Below are positions 74 to 53,227 of a DNA stretch of 64,000 nt, in pieces. The stretch is from a virus: IMG/VR virus record IMGVR_UViG_3300025317_000002, positions 1 through 64,000 of that record; one strand, written 5' to 3'. A program made the position numbers and the translations under genes. Under the pieces are notes generated by a model. It searched no databases and was not told the origin of the DNA. It worked only from the letters and a program-made list of their open reading frames with translations. Every line of letters begins with the position of its first letter. Position 1 is the first letter of the stretch.

Positions 74-1395
74 GCCTTTTAGTGCCATGCCCAGGGCGTT
101 CGAATTACTAAAGGGCGCCTGGAGGGACTCGCACCCTCCGTATGCCTGGGGGCGACTTGCCCCCCCGCATACAAGCGCCTTTAGCCATGCAAGCTTATAC
201 TCCCGCATGGCTGGGGGAGTCGTTGGGGCACCGGGATATTATATATTTCCCCCCCGGCAAGGGAACTTCAAGAGAAGAAGCGGAGGGGACCTTATGCTGC
301 TAAGGCCCCTCTCCCTTTCCTCCTGTCGGCTACCCATTGCGGGCGCCTATGGCCGGGGACAACACCGGCCGGTGCTTTCCTCGAATGAGGAAGCATGGTG
401 GGGCGGGTATTCCCAGGGAGATCTCACTATCCCCCATGTCCTCTGACCCCCCCTCAAACCCCTGATTCTACTCGCTTCCAGGATAGGCCACAGACTTCTA
501 GCCTATCCCTTTCAATCAGGGCCAGCCCACAACCACGCTCTACCTAGCACGGCTAGGAGAGCGAAAGCTAAAGAAACACATATAATCCGCCTTTTCCGGA
601 CTCAGACCCACACGGGCCAACCGGCAAGGCATAGCGTTTCCTCTGTTGCCTCTCCTTTCCGAAGGGAGAGACGCAAGGAATATTAGGGAGCATTCGCCAC
701 AGCTACTTAGCGATCCGACTGATCCTAAGCCTGATGGCTTCTGGCTCCCTGGCTTGTGCCTTGATATTTACCCGTGGTCAATTTCAGCTTTCACGGGCCG
801 GCGATGCCATGATTCCATTTGTCTGGAAGCATCGCCTCTCTTGATCCCCTCGCAATGTCGGGCACTTCCGCCTATAGATATAGCTCGCGCTATATCGCAG
901 CGTCCATTAGCCGAAGGAACCATCATATGATCCCCTCGCGGCACATTCCGATCAGCAATCCTTTAGCTATGATGGTCTCCTACCATCCCAGAGCGCCCTA
1001 CATTATCAGGCACTCATCGCTTCCCCGGCAATTACGCCGTGCCCGCTACACCCCGTGACCTATGGATTACCCCCCGCACTCTTTCCCTTTTCCACTCAAT
1101 CCTATGGCCTCCTCACGCGGTATATCGATCATGAGAGGACTGCTAGCATTGCCAGAGATTGCGAGAATCACCTCGCAATCCCCCAGATCAAGCCTCAAGC
1201 TTTTATTGGTTGGTGTGGGGGGGCGAGTCTTCCACCCCTCGGGACCTTGAAAATATGACAGGTCCCCCCACACCAACAGCGGTTTTCAGGCCGCCTTTTC
1301 CCCCCTAAGAGCAGCGCGTGGGGTATCATCCCTAGCGAGGGAGCAGTCCGCTTCCTCGCGCGCATCAGAGGAGTCCCTGGGACAACCCAGGTAAA
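74..1395 (+). ncRNA. Candidate giant structured noncoding RNA (about 1.3 kb)
   Basis: No ORF here looks like a real protein, but consecutive, mutually compatible stems cover the whole stretch. Seen directly: 111-118/175-182 (one G-U) enclosing 121-126/134-139 and 140-145/167-172 plus 148-153/159-164; 183-190/205-212; 259-264/312-317 around 283-288/306-311 plus 290-294/301-305; 331-335/405-409 around 351-356/365-370 and 373-382/387-395; 460-467/514-521 around 481-488/501-508; 536-541/558-563 plus 543-548/552-557; 685-691/744-750 around 706-715/721-729; 771-776/792-797; 800-807/829-836 plus 813-817/824-828; 877-884/889-896; 919-926/969-976; 1157-1165/1172-1180; 1209-1222/1264-1277; 1335-1344/1350-1359; 1376-1381/1386-1391. 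The two internal wobble pairs (113-180 and 1341-1353) are G-U on the plus strand and would be A-C on the minus strand, so plus is favoured. Size and phage setting recall GOLLD and ROOL RNAs; homology is not shown. The 5' end may lie outside the window. Confidence 0.72.
1209..1277 (+). repeat. 14-bp perfect inverted repeat with 41-nt loop
   Basis: Positions 1209-1222 and 1264-1277 are exact reverse complements over 14 bases, a GT-rich arm ending in six G pairing with six C. The loop holds a second possible helix, GGGACCT pairing with AGGTCCC near 1240-1266, which overlaps the outer arm, so the two pairings compete. It is the longest single stem of the structured region and lies in its 3' third. 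Confidence 0.75.
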
Positions 1396-3558: not shown

Positions 3559-3729
3559 CCTGTGTTAGATGTCCCAATAGAATTCCCAACACCTCGATAA
3601 ATACATAAGAGGACACATCTCCCTTCAATATTCCCCTTCTCTTCTCAATTCATCTCCTTTTCCTAATAGGCTCCTTGAGTCATCTTTCATGTCCTGTGTT
3701 AAGCTATGAGAGAGAAAGGTCATATTTTC
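3559..3729 (+). other. Noncoding gap with CCTGTGTTA direct repeat
   Basis: No coding frame seen. CCTGTGTTA occurs at about 3559-3567 and again at about 3694-3702, just before the next gene. GATAAATA near 3595-3602 is one base away from the T4 late promoter element TATAAATA, but I found no second example at other late genes, so this is only a weak hint that the head-gene block begins with its own promoter. Confidence 0.3.
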
Positions 3730-4260
3730 ATGAGAGACTCTCTCAGAGACATCATTGAAGAAGTTGTAAGAGGTCTCTCTCCAGACCAGGCAGCGATATT
3801 TATCCTGAATGAAGACAAAGATACGTCCCTTACCATGTCTCAAAGACAAGAGCACTTAACGGGGAGAGAAGAGTTAAGATTAAAGCGAGCCGAAGTCAGA
3901 CGCCAAATTGGAAGAGAAACTGGGAAGCGTCAGAAAAGACAAAGGACGCATCAGTTGCGTCTCGTAACGATTCACCAAAAGGAAAAAGAACAAACGGCAT
4001 CCGAACGAGAAGCAGCCAAGAGAGAAAAAGAAGCTGAGAAAGCCCAAAAGGCAAAAGAAAAGGCCAAGGCAAAGCCTAAACCCGAACGAGAAAAGAAACC
4101 TGAAAAACCAGGCGTAACAACCAAGAGGACAAAGACATCTTACGTCATTTCTCCTGCAGCAAAGTTAAAGACAAATATCCAAGCTCTCTCTCGGAGTCGT
4201 TCGGCAGATTATGATCCAGGGGGCGTAATTCCGCCAAGACCAAAAGCTGGAACGTCATAG
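3730..4260 (+). CDS. Lysine/arginine-rich protein with N-terminal helical tag
   Basis: 176 residues from ATG 3730; an alternative ATG at 3706 lacks a ribosome site. Residues 7-26 (DIIEEVVRGLSPDQAAIFIL) carry a short amphipathic tag that recurs in about ten proteins of this window. The rest, residues 40-150, is extremely basic with long EKA and KPK-type stretches, as expected for a nucleic-acid-binding or disordered protein. It is the first of six tagged proteins upstream of the prohead protease and capsid genes. I infer an internal head protein that could be packaged with the DNA; no family is recognised. Confidence 0.6.
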   Translation: MRDSLRDIIEEVVRGLSPDQAAIFILNEDKDTSLTMSQRQEHLTGREELRLKRAEVRRQIGRETGKRQKRQRTHQLRLVTIHQKEKEQTASEREAAKREKEAEKAQKAKEKAKAKPKPEREKKPEKPGVTTKRTKTSYVISPAAKLKTNIQALSRSRSADYDPGGVIPPRPKAGTS

Positions 4261-4271
4261 GAGCCCATTAG

Positions 4272-4883
4272 ATGAAGATTCAAGCGTATGCCACTGGACA
4301 TGGAAACTACTTTCATTTTCTGGATCAGGACCAAAACGATCTTGGATACATGTCGATTGAAGAATTTATTCAAAAGGCTCCCTCTCTTGGAATCAAAGAC
4401 GTAACCAAGGCCGAGACCGCTCTTCGTGCTTTTGCCATGCAATCCTCTAAACCAGGGGTATGGCCCTTGGATATTGATACCGACTCACCCGACCTTGCAG
4501 CCAACGATTTACTTTCTACTGGCTCTGGCTCAGATGGTGCAACCGCCGTCAAGATTGCGCTTCAGAACATGCCAATTCCTTCCAGGGTGGGAGACCAATC
4601 TACTACGAAGGGGTTTGTTCCCGAGTCAAGGGAATGGACAGTATTTGATTTGATTCAAGAGGCGGCAAAAAAGAACCTCTCTCCCGACCAAGCTGCTTTC
4701 ATCCTTTTGGAACGAGAAAGTGAGGATGAAGAGAAGAAGAAATGGAAAGAGACTTACCGGAAAGCCAGGGTTGACTACAGAGTAGAGTCTGATCGGATGC
4801 GGCATGGTATGGAACCTATGCGTGTGGGAATTGAGCGGAAGAGCGCTGTGGACACAGCAAAGGCAGCATCCAGAAAACAATAA
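4272..4883 (+). CDS. Tagged head-region protein, unknown function
   Basis: 203 residues. AGGAG lies 8 bases upstream of the start. The N-terminal 120 residues are of mixed composition with an acidic, serine and glycine-rich segment (residues 70-90). The recurring helical tag appears internally at about 124-147 (DLIQEAAKKNLSPDQAAFIL), nearly identical to the tag of the preceding gene, and a basic helical tail follows. The internal position suggests that two proteins were fused, or that the tag is a module rather than a leader peptide. Its stop overlaps the next start as TAATG. Confidence 0.6.
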   Translation: MKIQAYATGHGNYFHFLDQDQNDLGYMSIEEFIQKAPSLGIKDVTKAETALRAFAMQSSKPGVWPLDIDTDSPDLAANDLLSTGSGSDGATAVKIALQNMPIPSRVGDQSTTKGFVPESREWTVFDLIQEAAKKNLSPDQAAFILLERESEDEEKKKWKETYRKARVDYRVESDRMRHGMEPMRVGIERKSAVDTAKAASRKQ

Positions 4884-5266
4884 TGCAAGAAGAGATAAGA
4901 CAGATGATTGAGGCAGTAGCAGAAGGTAGAGTTCTCTACAGAGATGCGGCGAGCTATCTATTGTCTCTTGGTTTTACGAAAATCCAGATGCAGCCAAGTG
5001 TTGATCTTAATCAGCTTCTCAATGCCACAAATGAATCCGAGTTCGAGAGAAAAACTCCCCTCTCCAATAAAGAACTCAAGCGTGCTATGCGAGATGTGAG
5101 AAGAGAGATTACAGTTGCCAAAACGAAGTCCTCCCCCGCAAAGTGGGGTTCTCACATCAAAGCCTGGTGGGAGAAATCCAAAGGCAATCAACCAAGTCAT
5201 CCCAAGCTTTCCAAGAAGGCCAAGCACTCGGATGATAGCGAGCTAGACATTACAAAGACGATGTAG
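4883..5266 (+). CDS. Small basic protein with N-terminal helical tag
   Basis: 127 residues. Residues 5-30 form the recurring tag (RQMIEAVAEGRVLYRDAASY, then LLSLG). The C-terminal half is basic (KHSDDSELDITKTM end) with a WGSHIKAWWEKSKG segment. It starts one base inside the stop of the preceding gene. No known family is recognised. Position and composition fit the group of putative internal head or scaffold-associated proteins. Confidence 0.6.
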   Translation: MQEEIRQMIEAVAEGRVLYRDAASYLLSLGFTKIQMQPSVDLNQLLNATNESEFERKTPLSNKELKRAMRDVRREITVAKTKSSPAKWGSHIKAWWEKSKGNQPSHPKLSKKAKHSDDSELDITKTM

Positions 5267-5268
5267 CC

Positions 5269-5742
5269 ATGCCAGCTTTTATCAAGACTGCCCAGGATGA
5301 AGCACTCTGGCAAAGGGCAAAAGAGAAAGCCAAGAAATCCGGCTACTCAGAGAAAGACAAAGACAAGTTCTGGGGTGTTGTAACAACGATCTGGAAGAAG
5401 CTTCAGGAAGAGGTAAGTCAAGTGGACTTTAATTCAATGCTTGATAATATCTGGCAGGGCACTGTAAGCCCTCAGGAAGCAGCCCAAGCTCTCATCGAAG
5501 GGGGAAACAGATGGGAAGATCTGACTCTAGAGCAAAAAGCAGAGAGGCGAAGGAATAACCAAACCCAGGACAAGGATTTTTATGATTGGTGGTCTAAAGT
5601 TCCCCCTGAAAAGAGGAGGGAAGTTGAGCAGCAATTGTCCAAGCCTAAACAACCAGATTCGGAATATCAACAGAAGGCAAAAGCTTCAGAACCAAAAGCG
5701 CTACCTGTTACCCACACGAGAAAGAAAAAGGTAAGTGCATGA
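5269..5742 (+). CDS. Basic phage protein with DEALW-RAK motif and helical tag
   Basis: 157 residues. Residues 1-46 contain MPAFIKTAQDEALWQRAKEK followed by KFWGVVTTIWKKL, a pattern common near the termini of phage-associated structural proteins, including baseplate and scaffold-region proteins, though its exact role is unsettled. Residues 54-77 carry the recurring tag (MLDNIWQGTVSPQEAAQALI). The remainder is charged and probably disordered. It overlaps the next gene as ATGA. Probably a virion-associated protein. Confidence 0.6.
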   Translation: MPAFIKTAQDEALWQRAKEKAKKSGYSEKDKDKFWGVVTTIWKKLQEEVSQVDFNSMLDNIWQGTVSPQEAAQALIEGGNRWEDLTLEQKAERRRNNQTQDKDFYDWWSKVPPEKRREVEQQLSKPKQPDSEYQQKAKASEPKALPVTHTRKKKVSA

Positions 5743-6824
5743 ATCCCCAGATCCAAAAGCTCATTCAAGAAGTTGCTCTCGGCATGGTAGATACTGGTAA
5801 AGCTGCCAAGCTTCTTATGTCCCCTCACATGGGGGATGACTCCAGCTTTCCCAAGGTCGAGTATTACTGCTCGCAGTGTGACATGTGCTTTACCACCAAT
5901 CCAAATTCCCCAGATACCTTTGCAACGGCATGCCCCTATTGCAGGCAGTCTGGCACGATGCTTCTCCAGGATGCCAAAGCCAAAGATACCGTCGTCAAAG
6001 AATCTAAATCTTCTGCCCGAGGTTGGGCCAGAGCCAGGAAGTCCGTCCAGACTGACATTGAGCAACATAAAGGCAAAGCCTGGACAGAGGACTCTTCTCC
6101 TAAGTGGGACCCCGCGACAGGAGAGAAAGTTCCACCTGGAAAGGGATTAAAGGTCAATCGTCCCGATGAACCTCATCCTAAGAACCCACCAAAAGTCGAA
6201 ACAAAGCCTAAGCCTAAGAGTCCTGAAGGAAGCATGGCTACTATTCGCCGGAAGGGAAAAGGGAAATCGAAGGGAAAATCCGAAGTTGAGGAAGCCAAGC
6301 GTGGTACCATGCAAGCCAAGGCTCTCCGAATGAAGATGAAGGGAAGCGGAGAATCTGCCTACAAGGATTTTGGTAAAACTGGAGAAGGTTACCGGATTCA
6401 TGACGAGACGCCTGAAGAAAAGGAAAGACGCAAAGCTATGGGTGCCGAGCGTAAGAAAGGTGAGAAACAACAAGGGATCAGTTTGAAGCAATCCAGAGCT
6501 GAGCAGGAGAAGTTAAAGAGTAAAGTTGCCCAAAAGGCTCGTCAAAGCGAAGAGAAAAGAGCAGAGCGAAGTTCCAAACCTCATATTGATGTGCGTCGCA
6601 AGAATGAGAAGCCTGTTCCGGTTTTCACAAAGAAGGCTCCTCCGAGGGAAACCACTTCATTCAAAAAGGATACTTCTGAATCCTTCTTGGATGAAGCCTT
6701 GGCAGCATTTACCTCAAAGAGCTTAGCTCAGAACATGAAGACAGCACTTGGCCCTCTCCAAGCAGGACCCTTAGATGACCTCAAGGCTGTTCTTACTTCA
6801 ACGCTCTATGAGGACATCAGATGA
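5739..6824 (+). CDS. Long lysine-rich protein with tag and zinc ribbon
   Basis: 361 residues. Residues 4-27 are the recurring tag (IQKLIQEVALGMVDTGKAAK). Residues 43-69 form a Cys4-type zinc ribbon (CSQC at 44-47 and CPYC at 65-68, with an extra Cys50). Residues 90-330 are very rich in Lys, Arg, Glu and Gly and look disordered. The C-terminus (SFLDEALAAFTSKSLAQNMK) is helical. Tag plus zinc ribbon plus polybasic body suggests a DNA-condensing internal protein, but this is inference. It overlaps both neighbours by 4 bp. Confidence 0.6.
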   Translation: MNPQIQKLIQEVALGMVDTGKAAKLLMSPHMGDDSSFPKVEYYCSQCDMCFTTNPNSPDTFATACPYCRQSGTMLLQDAKAKDTVVKESKSSARGWARARKSVQTDIEQHKGKAWTEDSSPKWDPATGEKVPPGKGLKVNRPDEPHPKNPPKVETKPKPKSPEGSMATIRRKGKGKSKGKSEVEEAKRGTMQAKALRMKMKGSGESAYKDFGKTGEGYRIHDETPEEKERRKAMGAERKKGEKQQGISLKQSRAEQEKLKSKVAQKARQSEEKRAERSSKPHIDVRRKNEKPVPVFTKKAPPRETTSFKKDTSESFLDEALAAFTSKSLAQNMKTALGPLQAGPLDDLKAVLTSTLYEDIR

Positions 6825-7573
6825 CCAGCATCCAAGTTCGCGGCCATAACTCTCTTTCTCCAATCCTCTATCAGATGATTCAGGAAGAGGTATCTGCTCA
6901 GGATGCAGCCCAATACATTCTCGAACATGGACTCTCCCCGAATCTGGATGAGGGACTAAGAGATTGGCTTTCCAAGAAAATGGTAGGTGCAGGAGAGAAA
7001 CTCCAGAAAGTAGGGGAGAAGATTAAACCCTCTCCCCCTCAAAGGCCAAACTCCTATAGCTTCATATCAAGAAATAAGCCCGGTCCCCGAGCGACGGATA
7101 TGAAGACACCTTCTCTTGATGCCATGAGATCAAGAAGCCTAGATCAGATGAAGGCAGAAAGAGACAGGGCAATCGGCAAATTCAAGCCGACTTATTCATC
7201 TTCCTATAAACCGATACCTGCAAAACCAGAATCACCTAAGGTTAATTCTTCTCCCCAAGCGAAAGATGGGGAGCAGTCTCAAAGTGCAAACGATAGACTG
7301 AGGGATCTGGCGAGGAGGCAACGGGAGAAGCAAACAGCAGAGAGAGAAAAAGACTCAAAGTTATTTACATCGATAGAAAAAGTTACTTCTGGAAAATACA
7401 AACCAGTTGTAAGTCAGAGACTTTCAAGAAAGATTTCTCAGGGCGCCAAAGAAATTCTTTCTCCCTCTATTAAAGTGGGGAGTAGTGAAGCAGTTCCGAG
7501 GACGAAAACAAGTTCAACCGCGTCAAAGAGCAAAAGCTTAAAGACGAAATCTCAAGCCACAAAGCCGGCTTAA
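6821..7573 (+). CDS. Basic protein with helical tag
   Basis: 250 residues. Residues 14-38 are the recurring tag (ILYQMIQEEVSAQDAAQYIL). The rest is Ser, Lys and Pro-rich, low complexity and basic to the end (KSKSLKTKSQATKPA). It resembles the two preceding long basic proteins in composition and in carrying the tag near the N-terminus. Its start overlaps the previous stop. No family is recognised. Confidence 0.6.
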   Translation: MTSIQVRGHNSLSPILYQMIQEEVSAQDAAQYILEHGLSPNLDEGLRDWLSKKMVGAGEKLQKVGEKIKPSPPQRPNSYSFISRNKPGPRATDMKTPSLDAMRSRSLDQMKAERDRAIGKFKPTYSSSYKPIPAKPESPKVNSSPQAKDGEQSQSANDRLRDLARRQREKQTAEREKDSKLFTSIEKVTSGKYKPVVSQRLSRKISQGAKEILSPSIKVGSSEAVPRTKTSSTASKSKSLKTKSQATKPA

Positions 7574-7582
7574 GGAAATCTA

Positions 7583-8311
7583 TTGACCGACCCAGAAACC
7601 CATATTCCTCTTGGTGAATCTCATGCGGAGCTTCAGCAGGTTCTTCTGGAGTACCTTTATCAGCAGTCTTATCCCTACCACCAGTCTCTGTATGCAACAG
7701 GTAAGACCGGTTACGATAGAGCTACATCCAGGCAAGGAGTAAGAACGGGAGCACCGGATGATCTCAAGCAGGTCCCTTTAGCCTGGGATGATGACGATCC
7801 AGACTATGCCTTTCAGCAGGCAGGTAAAGTCAAGGAAAAAGGTTACAGGTACTCTTTCGGTCATCATCTTGGAGGTTTGAAAGATCCTTCTGAGAAGATT
7901 CAGGATGTTGACGTAATTCCAGGAGCGGTCAAAGACGAGACACCTCCTGTTGAAGGAAAAAGAACTGGCACAAACAAAGAGAGAATCGGACAGAAGTTCG
8001 ACCCCAATTACAAGAGATCTCCTGAGAAACCTGGAATCAGATTGAAGCGAATTACCAAGGAGAGCACCACGACCTCTCCTAACTCCAAGCCAAATCTCGA
8101 GGAGAATCAGGCTTGGATGCTCTACCATTACTTTGGGCCCCAGTACGATGAGATGAAGGAAATGACCTCTGCTGCCTCTGTGGGGTCTTATTCGAAGCCA
8201 ATGTGGTTTTGCTCGACTCCAAATTGTGGCTACCAGGCCCCACATGGAATGTATTCCTATGAAGGGATGCTCTGCCCTTATTGCAGATCCCCCTTAGCAA
8301 AAAGAGAATGA
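7583..8311 (+). CDS. Virion-region protein with C-terminal zinc ribbon
   Basis: 242 residues starting at a TTG with AAGGAAA a few bases upstream; no ATG fits better. The middle is basic and probably flexible. The last 30 residues form a zinc ribbon (FCSTPNCGY then MLCPYCRSP). The helical tag of the five preceding proteins is not evident, although the N-terminus is helical. It overlaps the next gene as ATGA. Confidence 0.55.
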   Translation: MTDPETHIPLGESHAELQQVLLEYLYQQSYPYHQSLYATGKTGYDRATSRQGVRTGAPDDLKQVPLAWDDDDPDYAFQQAGKVKEKGYRYSFGHHLGGLKDPSEKIQDVDVIPGAVKDETPPVEGKRTGTNKERIGQKFDPNYKRSPEKPGIRLKRITKESTTTSPNSKPNLEENQAWMLYHYFGPQYDEMKEMTSAASVGSYSKPMWFCSTPNCGYQAPHGMYSYEGMLCPYCRSPLAKRE

Positions 8312-15134: not shown

Positions 15135-15769
15135 GGGCACACGATGAAGCTCTGGTAAGGTATCTTGGCTCTCTCACAACGGATAGTGGAAACCCACTTC
15201 GAGTGATTTATGCGGCACCTCATCAAGCCTTCTCCCAGATGAAGGATCGCTATGGCACAATGGATAGGGTTCCACTTCCAATTGCAAGTATCTTTAGAGT
15301 GATAGACCCCTCTGTGGATTATTCCAGATGGACTAGGTCTCATGGAGCAATGCTCAGGCATCTGGCATATGCAGATTCTGAGAATAAGCTGATGAAAACA
15401 TCAGCGCTTCCGATTCCGATTTACATGCTCTACCACGCTGATCTCTGGGCCAGTGCAGACTGGGATATAAGTTCAATTCTGTTCCAGATCTCTATGGCAG
15501 AAGGTATCTCAGGTAGAGTCTATAGGCAAGTGGATATGGGAGATATTTGGGGAAAGAAATATGTTCCTTTTTATCCCAAGACTCCCATAAACAACTCAGA
15601 TTTGATTGGGGGAATAGACACAAGTATCACACTTAGGAAAACCATTCCCTTCGAGTGTCGAGGTTGGCTATCTCCTGACGTTATCAACTTAAGGACAGTT
15701 CTTACAGGGGAAACTCAGGTTCTTGATCTTGAGACTGAGACTGAACTCGATGTTTGGACAGAGACCTGA
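15098..15769 (+). CDS. Tail sheath stabiliser / tail terminator (gp15-like)
   Basis: 223 residues, with AAGGA about 10 bases upstream of the ATG. The pattern of T4 gp15 can be followed: an N-terminal strand with VIYAAPHQAFSQM, VPLPIASIFRVIDPSVDYSR, a helix-strand pair around PIPIYMLYHADLWASADWDI, and a C-terminal strand pair ITLRKTIPFECRGWLSPDVI. gp15 caps the tail tube and sheath and joins them to the neck. Position just before the sheath gene fits. Confidence 0.62.
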   Translation: MAVIKSRAALVLRAHDEALVRYLGSLTTDSGNPLRVIYAAPHQAFSQMKDRYGTMDRVPLPIASIFRVIDPSVDYSRWTRSHGAMLRHLAYADSENKLMKTSALPIPIYMLYHADLWASADWDISSILFQISMAEGISGRVYRQVDMGDIWGKKYVPFYPKTPINNSDLIGGIDTSITLRKTIPFECRGWLSPDVINLRTVLTGETQVLDLETETELDVWTET

Positions 15770-15792
15770 TCCAAACCTTAAAGGAGCTTACT

Positions 15793-16152
15793 ATGAGCGC
15801 GATTGACCAGTATCTCAATATGATCCTCGTTGAGGGTTACAGTCCCTCTGATGTAGCAAACCTCATTTTGGAGGGAACTGACCCCGAGGAGTTTTCATTT
15901 GAGGGAGAAGTGGAAGACCGAACCAATCACCCCGCCGAAGGCGGCGTGGAAGATGTGCCGTATGAGTCTATTGCTTCGATTGATGTCCTCAAGGAAGATG
16001 GGGTATGGATGGTGCGCACATTTGACGCAGAGGGCAACTCCACAGGTGAAACGGTTCACGGAGCAGGTCCCGCAGGATGGGCGGCAGCCTACAAAGACTG
16101 CATGAGTCGTGGAGCCGCTAATGTGCGTCTCCCTGGCGCAGATGAAATGTAA
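15793..16152 (+). CDS. Small tagged acidic protein
   Basis: 119 residues. I chose ATG 15793 because AAAGGAG precedes it by 8 bases. Residues 4-28 are a clear copy of the recurring tag (YLNMILVEGYSPSDVANLIL, then EG). The rest is acidic with a compact C-terminal region (AAYKDCMSRGAANVRLPGAD). No family is recognised. It lies between the tail terminator and sheath, and shows that the tag is not confined to the pre-capsid cluster. Confidence 0.6.
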   Translation: MSAIDQYLNMILVEGYSPSDVANLILEGTDPEEFSFEGEVEDRTNHPAEGGVEDVPYESIASIDVLKEDGVWMVRTFDAEGNSTGETVHGAGPAGWAAAYKDCMSRGAANVRLPGADEM

Positions 16153-32856: not shown

Positions 32857-33309
32857 TTGAATCCAAATATCCTCGTTGTGGAGGATGATCAAGTATTTGT
32901 GCTCCTAATTCAGAATTATCTGAGCAAAAACAGCTACAGATTTGACCATGAGTCTACTTTTGCCGGAGCTTTAAAAAGATTAGGCCAGAATGTCTATGAG
33001 GCTATCCTCTTAGATCTCGTTCTTCCCGACTCATTTGGATTAGAAGTCATTAGGGGGATAATGGAACTATGTCAAACAACTCCTATCATTGTAATAACGG
33101 GGATAGAAGACTACAACCTTGCTTCCGAAGCAATCAAGATCGGCGTTGAGGATTGCTTGTTTAAGACAAACAGTCTTTTCTCGGGACATATTTTAGATGG
33201 AATTATCAAGAATTCTATCACAAGGTTTGAGAGGCACAAAAGAATGACCCAAGAATTCAACAAGCTAAAGAGTTTAGCAAATATTATTGAAACAAAGATG
33301 AATTGTTAA
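32857..33309 (+). CDS. Stand-alone response regulator receiver protein
   Basis: 150 residues from TTG 32857 with GAGGGA upstream. A complete receiver domain: acidic pair E9/D10/D11 (ILVVEDD), phosphoacceptor D53 (ILLDLVLPD), T81 (IIVITGIED) and K103 (LFKTN). A 40-residue helical tail follows with no DNA-binding output domain. Such single-domain regulators act by protein contact. Placed between the giant fibre and small membrane proteins, its role in a phage is unclear. It was probably acquired from a bacterial host. Confidence 0.85.
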   Translation: MNPNILVVEDDQVFVLLIQNYLSKNSYRFDHESTFAGALKRLGQNVYEAILLDLVLPDSFGLEVIRGIMELCQTTPIIVITGIEDYNLASEAIKIGVEDCLFKTNSLFSGHILDGIIKNSITRFERHKRMTQEFNKLKSLANIIETKMNC

Positions 33310-52104: not shown

Positions 52105-52341
52105 TCATTTCTCAATCCAATGGCATGTCTTGTAAATGCTTCTTCTTAGTTTTCCATCCTTATCGATCTTTCTTACCACCACAAAAGGAACCCCTCGTTC
52201 GAAGAAATGCTGTGCCCAGTTTCGGATGATCCATTCTTCGTTGGCATCGCAATCCTGAATGAGTCGATTCTGATCCCACATTCTCACTTCGTTTATTGTA
52301 TTATGGCAATTGATGTCCTTCGCATCGATTTCTTCATACAT
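52105..52341 (-). CDS. Small protein of unknown function
   Basis: 78 residues on the minus strand, overlapping the kinase gene end by 8 bases. Acidic N-terminus and a mixed fold (IIRNWAQHFFERGVPFVVVR, then KIDKDGKLRRSIYKTC). No known family is recognised. Its end is immediately adjacent to the last plus-strand gene. Confidence 0.5.
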   Translation of the reverse strand: MYEEIDAKDINCHNTINEVRMWDQNRLIQDCDANEEWIIRNWAQHFFERGVPFVVVRKIDKDGKLRRSIYKTCHWIEK

Positions 52342-53227
52342 GGTGGAACAACCTCCATTCTTGCACAGCCGAAAGCATTTCTCTCACGGACTTGATTCCC
52401 ACTCCTTTTACTTTTAGAAGCTCATCTCGAGAGAATTTGCTTAACTCTTCCCAGGATTTGATTTTAGCATTCTGAAGAAAAGCACAAGTTCGTGTGCTCC
52501 AATAACTCCAGTTTGCTACATCAGGTTTAGCATTCTCTTTGAGCGATTTCAAGGCAACGTCTTTGAATTTCGTATGATGTCCCCAATCATCCTTACGAGA
52601 AATTTTCTCTTCAATTATAGAAAGAATCTTGCCAAGATCAGACTCCTCATTCCAATCTACCTTCACGAGCTCCGTGACTGAGCCCATATAGCTTACGTAG
52701 CCTTGATAGGCATCTTCCAATCCCTGAAGGTAATCCAGAGTCAATCCAGCTTCCATGCTCCGCCCTCGCTTTCTGGCCCTGGCCAGAGCAACTTCTGGCC
52801 TCACATCCAGATAGATGACAAGATCAGGAAGTGCGACCTTATCTCGAAGCAAAGTCAGAACCTGCTGATAGATTTCCATGTCGGAATCAGAGATATGCCC
52901 ATCCCTCGCAAGGAGGAGCGAGAAACAGAAGTCTTCACAAGGGGTTCTATCCACAATAATTCCTGGATGGTAGAGCTTCATGGTTCGAGCAATGTTGCTT
53001 AGCTCAAATCTGGCAGCTAGAAAAGCCATCTGAAGAATGAAGGCGCTTCTGGTCTTGGTGCAGGTTCCAGCTTGGAGATCCTGGTAAAATTCCTCCAGGT
53101 GTGGCCGAAGCGCATCTACCGGCTCAGGAAGCATAGGCCAGCCAAGGTGCCTTTGAAGCTCCTCACAGAGGCTCGATTTTCCCGAACCCAAAAGGCCAGC
53201 AATTCCGACATAGAGCCCTTCAGACAT
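52334..53227 (-). CDS. Deoxynucleoside kinase with C-terminal alpha-CTD-like domain
   Basis: 297 residues. Residues 5-200 are a deoxynucleoside kinase: Walker A GLLGSGKSSL at 11-20, the EPVD motif at 35-38, DRTPCEDF near 93, and a LID region RARKRGRSME near 150. It phosphorylates deoxynucleosides for dNTP supply. Residues about 245-292 (TRTCAFLQNAKIKSWEELSK, then DELLKVKGVGIKSVREML) read like the helix-hairpin-helix fold of the RNA polymerase alpha C-terminal domain. That extra domain is unusual for a kinase; it could bind DNA or a polymerase partner. Confidence 0.8.
   Translation of the reverse strand: MSEGLYVGIAGLLGSGKSSLCEELQRHLGWPMLPEPVDALRPHLEEFYQDLQAGTCTKTRSAFILQMAFLAARFELSNIARTMKLYHPGIIVDRTPCEDFCFSLLLARDGHISDSDMEIYQQVLTLLRDKVALPDLVIYLDVRPEVALARARKRGRSMEAGLTLDYLQGLEDAYQGYVSYMGSVTELVKVDWNEESDLGKILSIIEEKISRKDDWGHHTKFKDVALKSLKENAKPDVANWSYWSTRTCAFLQNAKIKSWEELSKFSRDELLKVKGVGIKSVREMLSAVQEWRLFHHV

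Follow-up and report, generated by a model that had tools for sequence, protein, structure and literature searches.

We propose that positions 74-1400, at the extreme left end of a phage contig, specify one large (~1.3 kb), unclassified, ornate non-coding RNA of the minus strand, with its 5' end near 1400, its 3' end near 74 or beyond and a putative function. We give this reading, which draws on fold z-scores and an rRNA-like composition, a probability of about 0.5. The contig is an 83,116-base IMG/VR virus record, and the window analysed here is its first 64 kb. The structure at 74-1395 is real and beyond chance. On the plus strand the MFE is -522, compared with -429 ± 11 for dinucleotide shuffles (z -8.2), and on the minus strand it is -593 compared with -501 ± 12 (z -7.7); none of 120 shuffles folded as low in either case. 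Sub-region 74-1010 gave z -6.2 (plus) and -9.7 (minus), and the values for the region overall range from about -7.6 to -10. With the same scoring, E. coli 16S rRNA reached z -4.6, two 23S rRNA pieces -1.7 and -2.1, and two coding stretches of the window -1.2 and -1.6. The z-score strengthens with the allowed pairing distance on both strands (on minus from -5.3 at a span of 40 to -6.8 at 100 and -7.8 at 500), and the signal therefore reflects more than local hairpins. In a scan of ~2.4 Mb of the phage's own and distantly related phage DNA, the segment at window position 121 ranked first of 20,459. The next three structured loci of that scan (L152, L099 and L011) were inspected and are all coding.

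Stem counts point the same way. Perfect Watson-Crick hairpins of at least 8 bp number four with loops of 3-12 nt (0.25 expected) and seven with loops of up to 40 nt (0.8 expected), and the MFE fold of either strand contains ~27 hairpins. The initial annotation had described a structured region with more than twenty stems, perfect ones of 9 and 14 bp among them. The shuffled-sequence control and the hairpin count bear this out, and the perfect stems were found exactly, at 1209-1222/1264-1277 (14 bp), 919-927/968-976 (9 bp) and 1157-1165/1172-1180 (9 bp). Its tally of at least eight perfect stems was right as to the excess over chance and slightly high as a number. The absence of a believable gene, also claimed there, agrees with our data: the region is non-coding, and no frame looks coding. 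Its longest ORF spans 119 aa, a length reached by 35% of mononucleotide shuffles; the codon scores of its frames resemble those of non-coding frames; and in searches with these frames, Pfam gave nothing at E <= 1 and the PHROG matches (E 0.07 and 0.46) stayed at the level of chance.

The host contig belongs to a tailed phage with a contractile tail, as judged from identified sheath, capsid and baseplate genes. Its open reading frames lie on the plus strand, structural genes included, from ~2.5 to 52 kb and on the minus strand from 52 to 83 kb. Among the former, a response-regulator receiver domain protein is encoded amid the late genes (32857-33306), and several neighbouring small proteins at 3706-8311 and 15754-16152 have in common, by eye, a short motif like 'SPDQAAxxIL', which may be a shared targeting tag close to the head genes. 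Among the latter is a deoxynucleoside kinase (52337-53227, minus) whose C-terminal stretch matches Pfam PF03118, the RNA polymerase alpha C-terminal domain, above the cut-off. The phage is an orphan. Relatives were sought through an antirepressor-like protein, the terminase and the major capsid protein in IMG/VR and through the terminase in GTDB; among the matches listed from INPHARED, IMG/VR and GTDB, the nearest are ~30-33% identical by protein, in collections that may omit close relatives by design. Because the region sits at a contig end and is richer in GC (56%, compared with ~45% in the remainder), this end may be chimeric or misassembled. The two contig ends do not overlap, and joining them directly continues no single reading frame. 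At the right end, a minus-strand ORF cut by the contig end (L002:18475-19116) is weakly sigma-factor-like (PHROG E 0.005) and, were the genome circular, might be the gene that follows the RNA. On its inner side the region adjoins a gap, at ~1.4-2.3 kb, that precedes the plus-strand block. This gap holds six copies of the perfect 19-bp tandem repeat AGAAACAACAGAGATAATG (1902-2020), an array that looks iteron- or operator-like, and a perfect 11-bp inverted repeat TGTCAATCATT/AATGATTGACA (1627-1687), between whose arms TTGACA words recur; TACTTGACAA occurs again at 2308-2317.

One observation against a large RNA is that both strands fold equally well, which is unusual for RNA (16S antisense, z -1.9). 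Equal folding of both strands, next to tandem and inverted repeats in the gap before the rightward genes, would suit a palindrome cluster structured only as DNA, such as a replication origin, a packaging site or a protein-binding region. We consider such an element rather unlikely, given that long-range nested pairing, bulges, helices with G-U pairs and strand-asymmetric purines are unexpected of DNA palindromes. Since both strands fold well, energy does not decide the strand of an RNA either; the values are nearly equal, and the plus-strand z equals or exceeds that of minus. At a purine content of 0.55, the minus strand has unpaired bases distributed as in rRNA sense strands (A.39, G.26, U.22, C.13), whereas those of plus (C.35, G.08) resemble rRNA antisense. 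Shuffles give equal unpaired A; the profile thus largely reflects composition, and its support for minus is not conclusive. G-U pairs make up 12-13% of all pairs on minus compared with 5% on plus, and three features exist on minus only: three G-U pairs in helix 938-927/923-912, one G-U in the helix P1 described below and a GNRA loop at 888-885. The initial annotation had argued from internal G-U pairs for the plus strand. Helices 1335-1344/1350-1359 and 74-83/107-116 do form G-U pairs on plus at positions that would be A-C on minus, but single interruptions flanked by helix amount to four G-U and four A-C, a balance that does not sustain the argument. A structured plus-strand RNA, which the plus z would also fit, is improbable in our view: its unpaired bases, rich in C and poor in G, and its low share of G-U pairs are unlike those of rRNA sense strands. 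If the region is an RNA at all, its strand is quite likely minus, and the earlier assignment to plus is probably wrong.

Read on the minus strand, the predicted fold ends in a contiguous, multi-branched 3' domain (459-98), as delineated by pair probabilities. It is closed by P1 (459-454/103-98, 0.95), on which P2 (453-445/221-213, 0.97) stacks without a gap; the hairpin P3 (212-202/193-183, 0.93) follows P2, again without a gap, and three bases separate it from a junction at 179-114. A long branched helix system occupies 269-370 and includes 325-318/276-269 (0.93) and 309-301/294-286 (0.96). Upstream, helix 521-514/467-460 (0.88) encloses the hairpin 509-499/490-480 (0.95). An 8-bp hairpin at 877-896 carries the GNRA tetraloop, GCGA. 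Further towards the 5' end lie a 13-bp hairpin (1183-1171/1166-1154, 0.95) and the perfect 14-bp stem, here 1277-1264/1222-1209, with further hairpins inside. A 12-nt direct repeat, GCGAGGGGATCA, is present at 939-928 and 853-842. Either copy can pair with 922-912 in a helix with three G-U pairs possible only on minus, and the local hairpin of this element (842-939) has a pair probability of 0.94; the alternative pairing is a possible switch.

The junction at 179-114 is predicted to be a tRNA-like three-way junction, in view of its fold, covariance-model matches and a pattern count. Its 7-bp acceptor-like stem (179-173/120-114) runs straight into a 6-bp T-arm-like hairpin (139-121), whose loop, UGCGAGU, is one base from UUCGAGU and has G where tRNAs have U55. 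One further long arm (172-140) completes the junction, in which neither a D arm nor an anticodon arm is predicted; ARAGORN, with introns allowed too, found no complete tRNA with an anticodon. In 54 phage records, a covariance model of 215-72 gave only two weak matches outside its own genome, on a tRNA-Leu and a tRNA-Asp gene. The Rfam mascRNA model aligned to the junction over its full length, albeit weakly (14.8 bits, E 0.98). Outside tRNAs, only about nine places in 2.58 Mb match the pattern of an acceptor stem with a T-arm, among them 179-114 and two more elsewhere in the same phage. Taken by itself, the tRNA-like score falls short of significance, and the junction is a plausible, not a proven, tRNA half-fold. 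In the mechanism that we propose, the RNA would be abundant and folded, its structure would be its function, as in giant ornate phage RNAs, and it would act either stand-alone or after processing. Close to its 3' end, the tRNA-like module might offer the host tRNA machinery a handle, and an RNase P cut near 180/179 could separate the RNA from a downstream message.

A pattern match within the phage, with the canonical loop TTCGAAT, led to a second region at 68.9-70.06 kb of the contig (L002:4897-6064). A 118-aa minus-strand ORF (L002:4860-5216) covers part of it; no ORF above 80 aa lies wholly inside L002:5280-6060 (contig 69,280-70,060). On the minus strand of this interval lie three T-arms, each with a TTCGANT loop and an acceptor-like stem: element A (L002:6027-5960), which ends in ACCA, element B (about L002:5744-5605) and element C (about L002:5474-5364), which ends in GCCA, so that CCA is encoded in two of the three. 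All 20 listed phage matches of the second region fall on annotated tRNA genes, every one at element A, and are individually weak (E 0.8). The interiors of the elements are aberrant, MFE folds do not reproduce a tRNA shape in all of them, and ARAGORN calls no standard tRNA in the phage, elements A-C included, even with introns allowed. The second region also holds perfect 12- and 14-bp stems. Such tRNA-like elements on the minus strand of this phage speak for the reading proposed for 74-1400. It is possible, though we hold this view only tentatively, that the phage has a new class of giant ornate RNA with its own tRNA-like processing or docking module, together with a set of tRNA-like RNAs that lack an anticodon or are rearranged. 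If true, this would be a viral RNA system founded on tRNA mimicry.

The sequence beyond the 3' end allows the main alternative interpretation, namely that of a very long structured 5' leader whose 3' end would mask or free the ribosome-binding site of a gene starting at 61. A Shine-Dalgarno-like GGAGGU (71-66) and an ATG (61-59) follow on the minus strand within 15 nt of the structure, and no terminator lies between. In folding, the Shine-Dalgarno region can pair either with 94-89 (probability 0.92) or with the 3' strand of the T-arm (124-116), and the repeat GCGAGGGGATCA would offer a switch. The ORF from this ATG, however, runs off the contig after only 20 codons with a poor codon score (-0.57) and may not be a gene, and to our knowledge the region is far larger than known leaders; a leader is thus unlikely. 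For the large RNA that we favour, no good promoter or terminator was found. A weak sigma-70-like promoter, TTGGCA-16-TATTCT, is situated at 1419-1446 on minus, ~20 nt before the proposed 5' end, and sigma-70-like sites are no more frequent than by chance (4 found, 3.1 expected).

The initial annotation had suggested a member of GOLLD, ROOL, OLE or HEARO or else a new class. That the region encodes a large structured RNA agrees with our preferred reading; membership does not, as none of the four models matched the region even at E <= 10. None of the 4227 Rfam families was significant for it, and lax thresholds gave chance matches only. Scans of its own and related phage records for GOLLD, and one scan for ROOL, gave no match, with the positive control silent in each. 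The region found no relative by blastn among phages and plasmids, three RNA motif patterns had 0 matches in IMG/VR, and the region is single-copy and known from one sequence. A new class is more likely than membership of a known family; because the covariance-model feature of GOLLD and ROOL fails, we place the region in the loose kind 'large ornate RNA' as a candidate for a new class. The giant ornate RNAs described from bacteria and phages are few; one more class, unrelated to these, would suggest repeated invention by phages. The link of such RNAs to tRNA loci has so far been mainly one of position, and a tRNA-like module built into the RNA would open it to testing.

Several known RNAs invite comparison. 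OLE is likewise a large ornate bacterial RNA and differs in that Rfam yields no match. In mascRNA-menRNA (RF01684), too, an acceptor-like stem stacks on a T-arm and the remaining arms are reduced, and RNase P and RNase Z release mascRNA from a long non-coding RNA; the family is vertebrate, and with its weak alignment to the junction it is an analogy, not a sign of membership. The giant ornate RNAs with cryo-EM structures are RNA-only cages or dimers whose function is unknown (PMC12286853). GOLLD and ROOL, phage RNAs found near tRNA islands, form nanocages, and their function is unknown (PMC12286853); in setting and in elaborateness the region is like them. A diverged GOLLD, ROOL or other known large RNA below detection is very improbable: the size class, phage location and tRNA-like surroundings are similar (PMC12286853), but no match emerged at E <= 10 in small search spaces. 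ROOL (RF03087) is likewise an ornate RNA, found in phages and prophages near tRNA islands (PMC12286853), and differs in the lack of a model match and in size, ROOL env-120 being 659 nt. GOLLD (RF02032), also from phages and prophages, is giant and multi-branched, and its linker sometimes contains a tRNA (PMC12286853). It assembles as a 14-mer nanocage. No model match links it to our region, which is longer (~1.3 kb, where many GOLLD members have more than 800 nt). GOLLD often lies near tRNA islands; the phage studied here is without an ordinary tRNA but has the aberrant tRNA-like elements at 69.3-70.1 kb.
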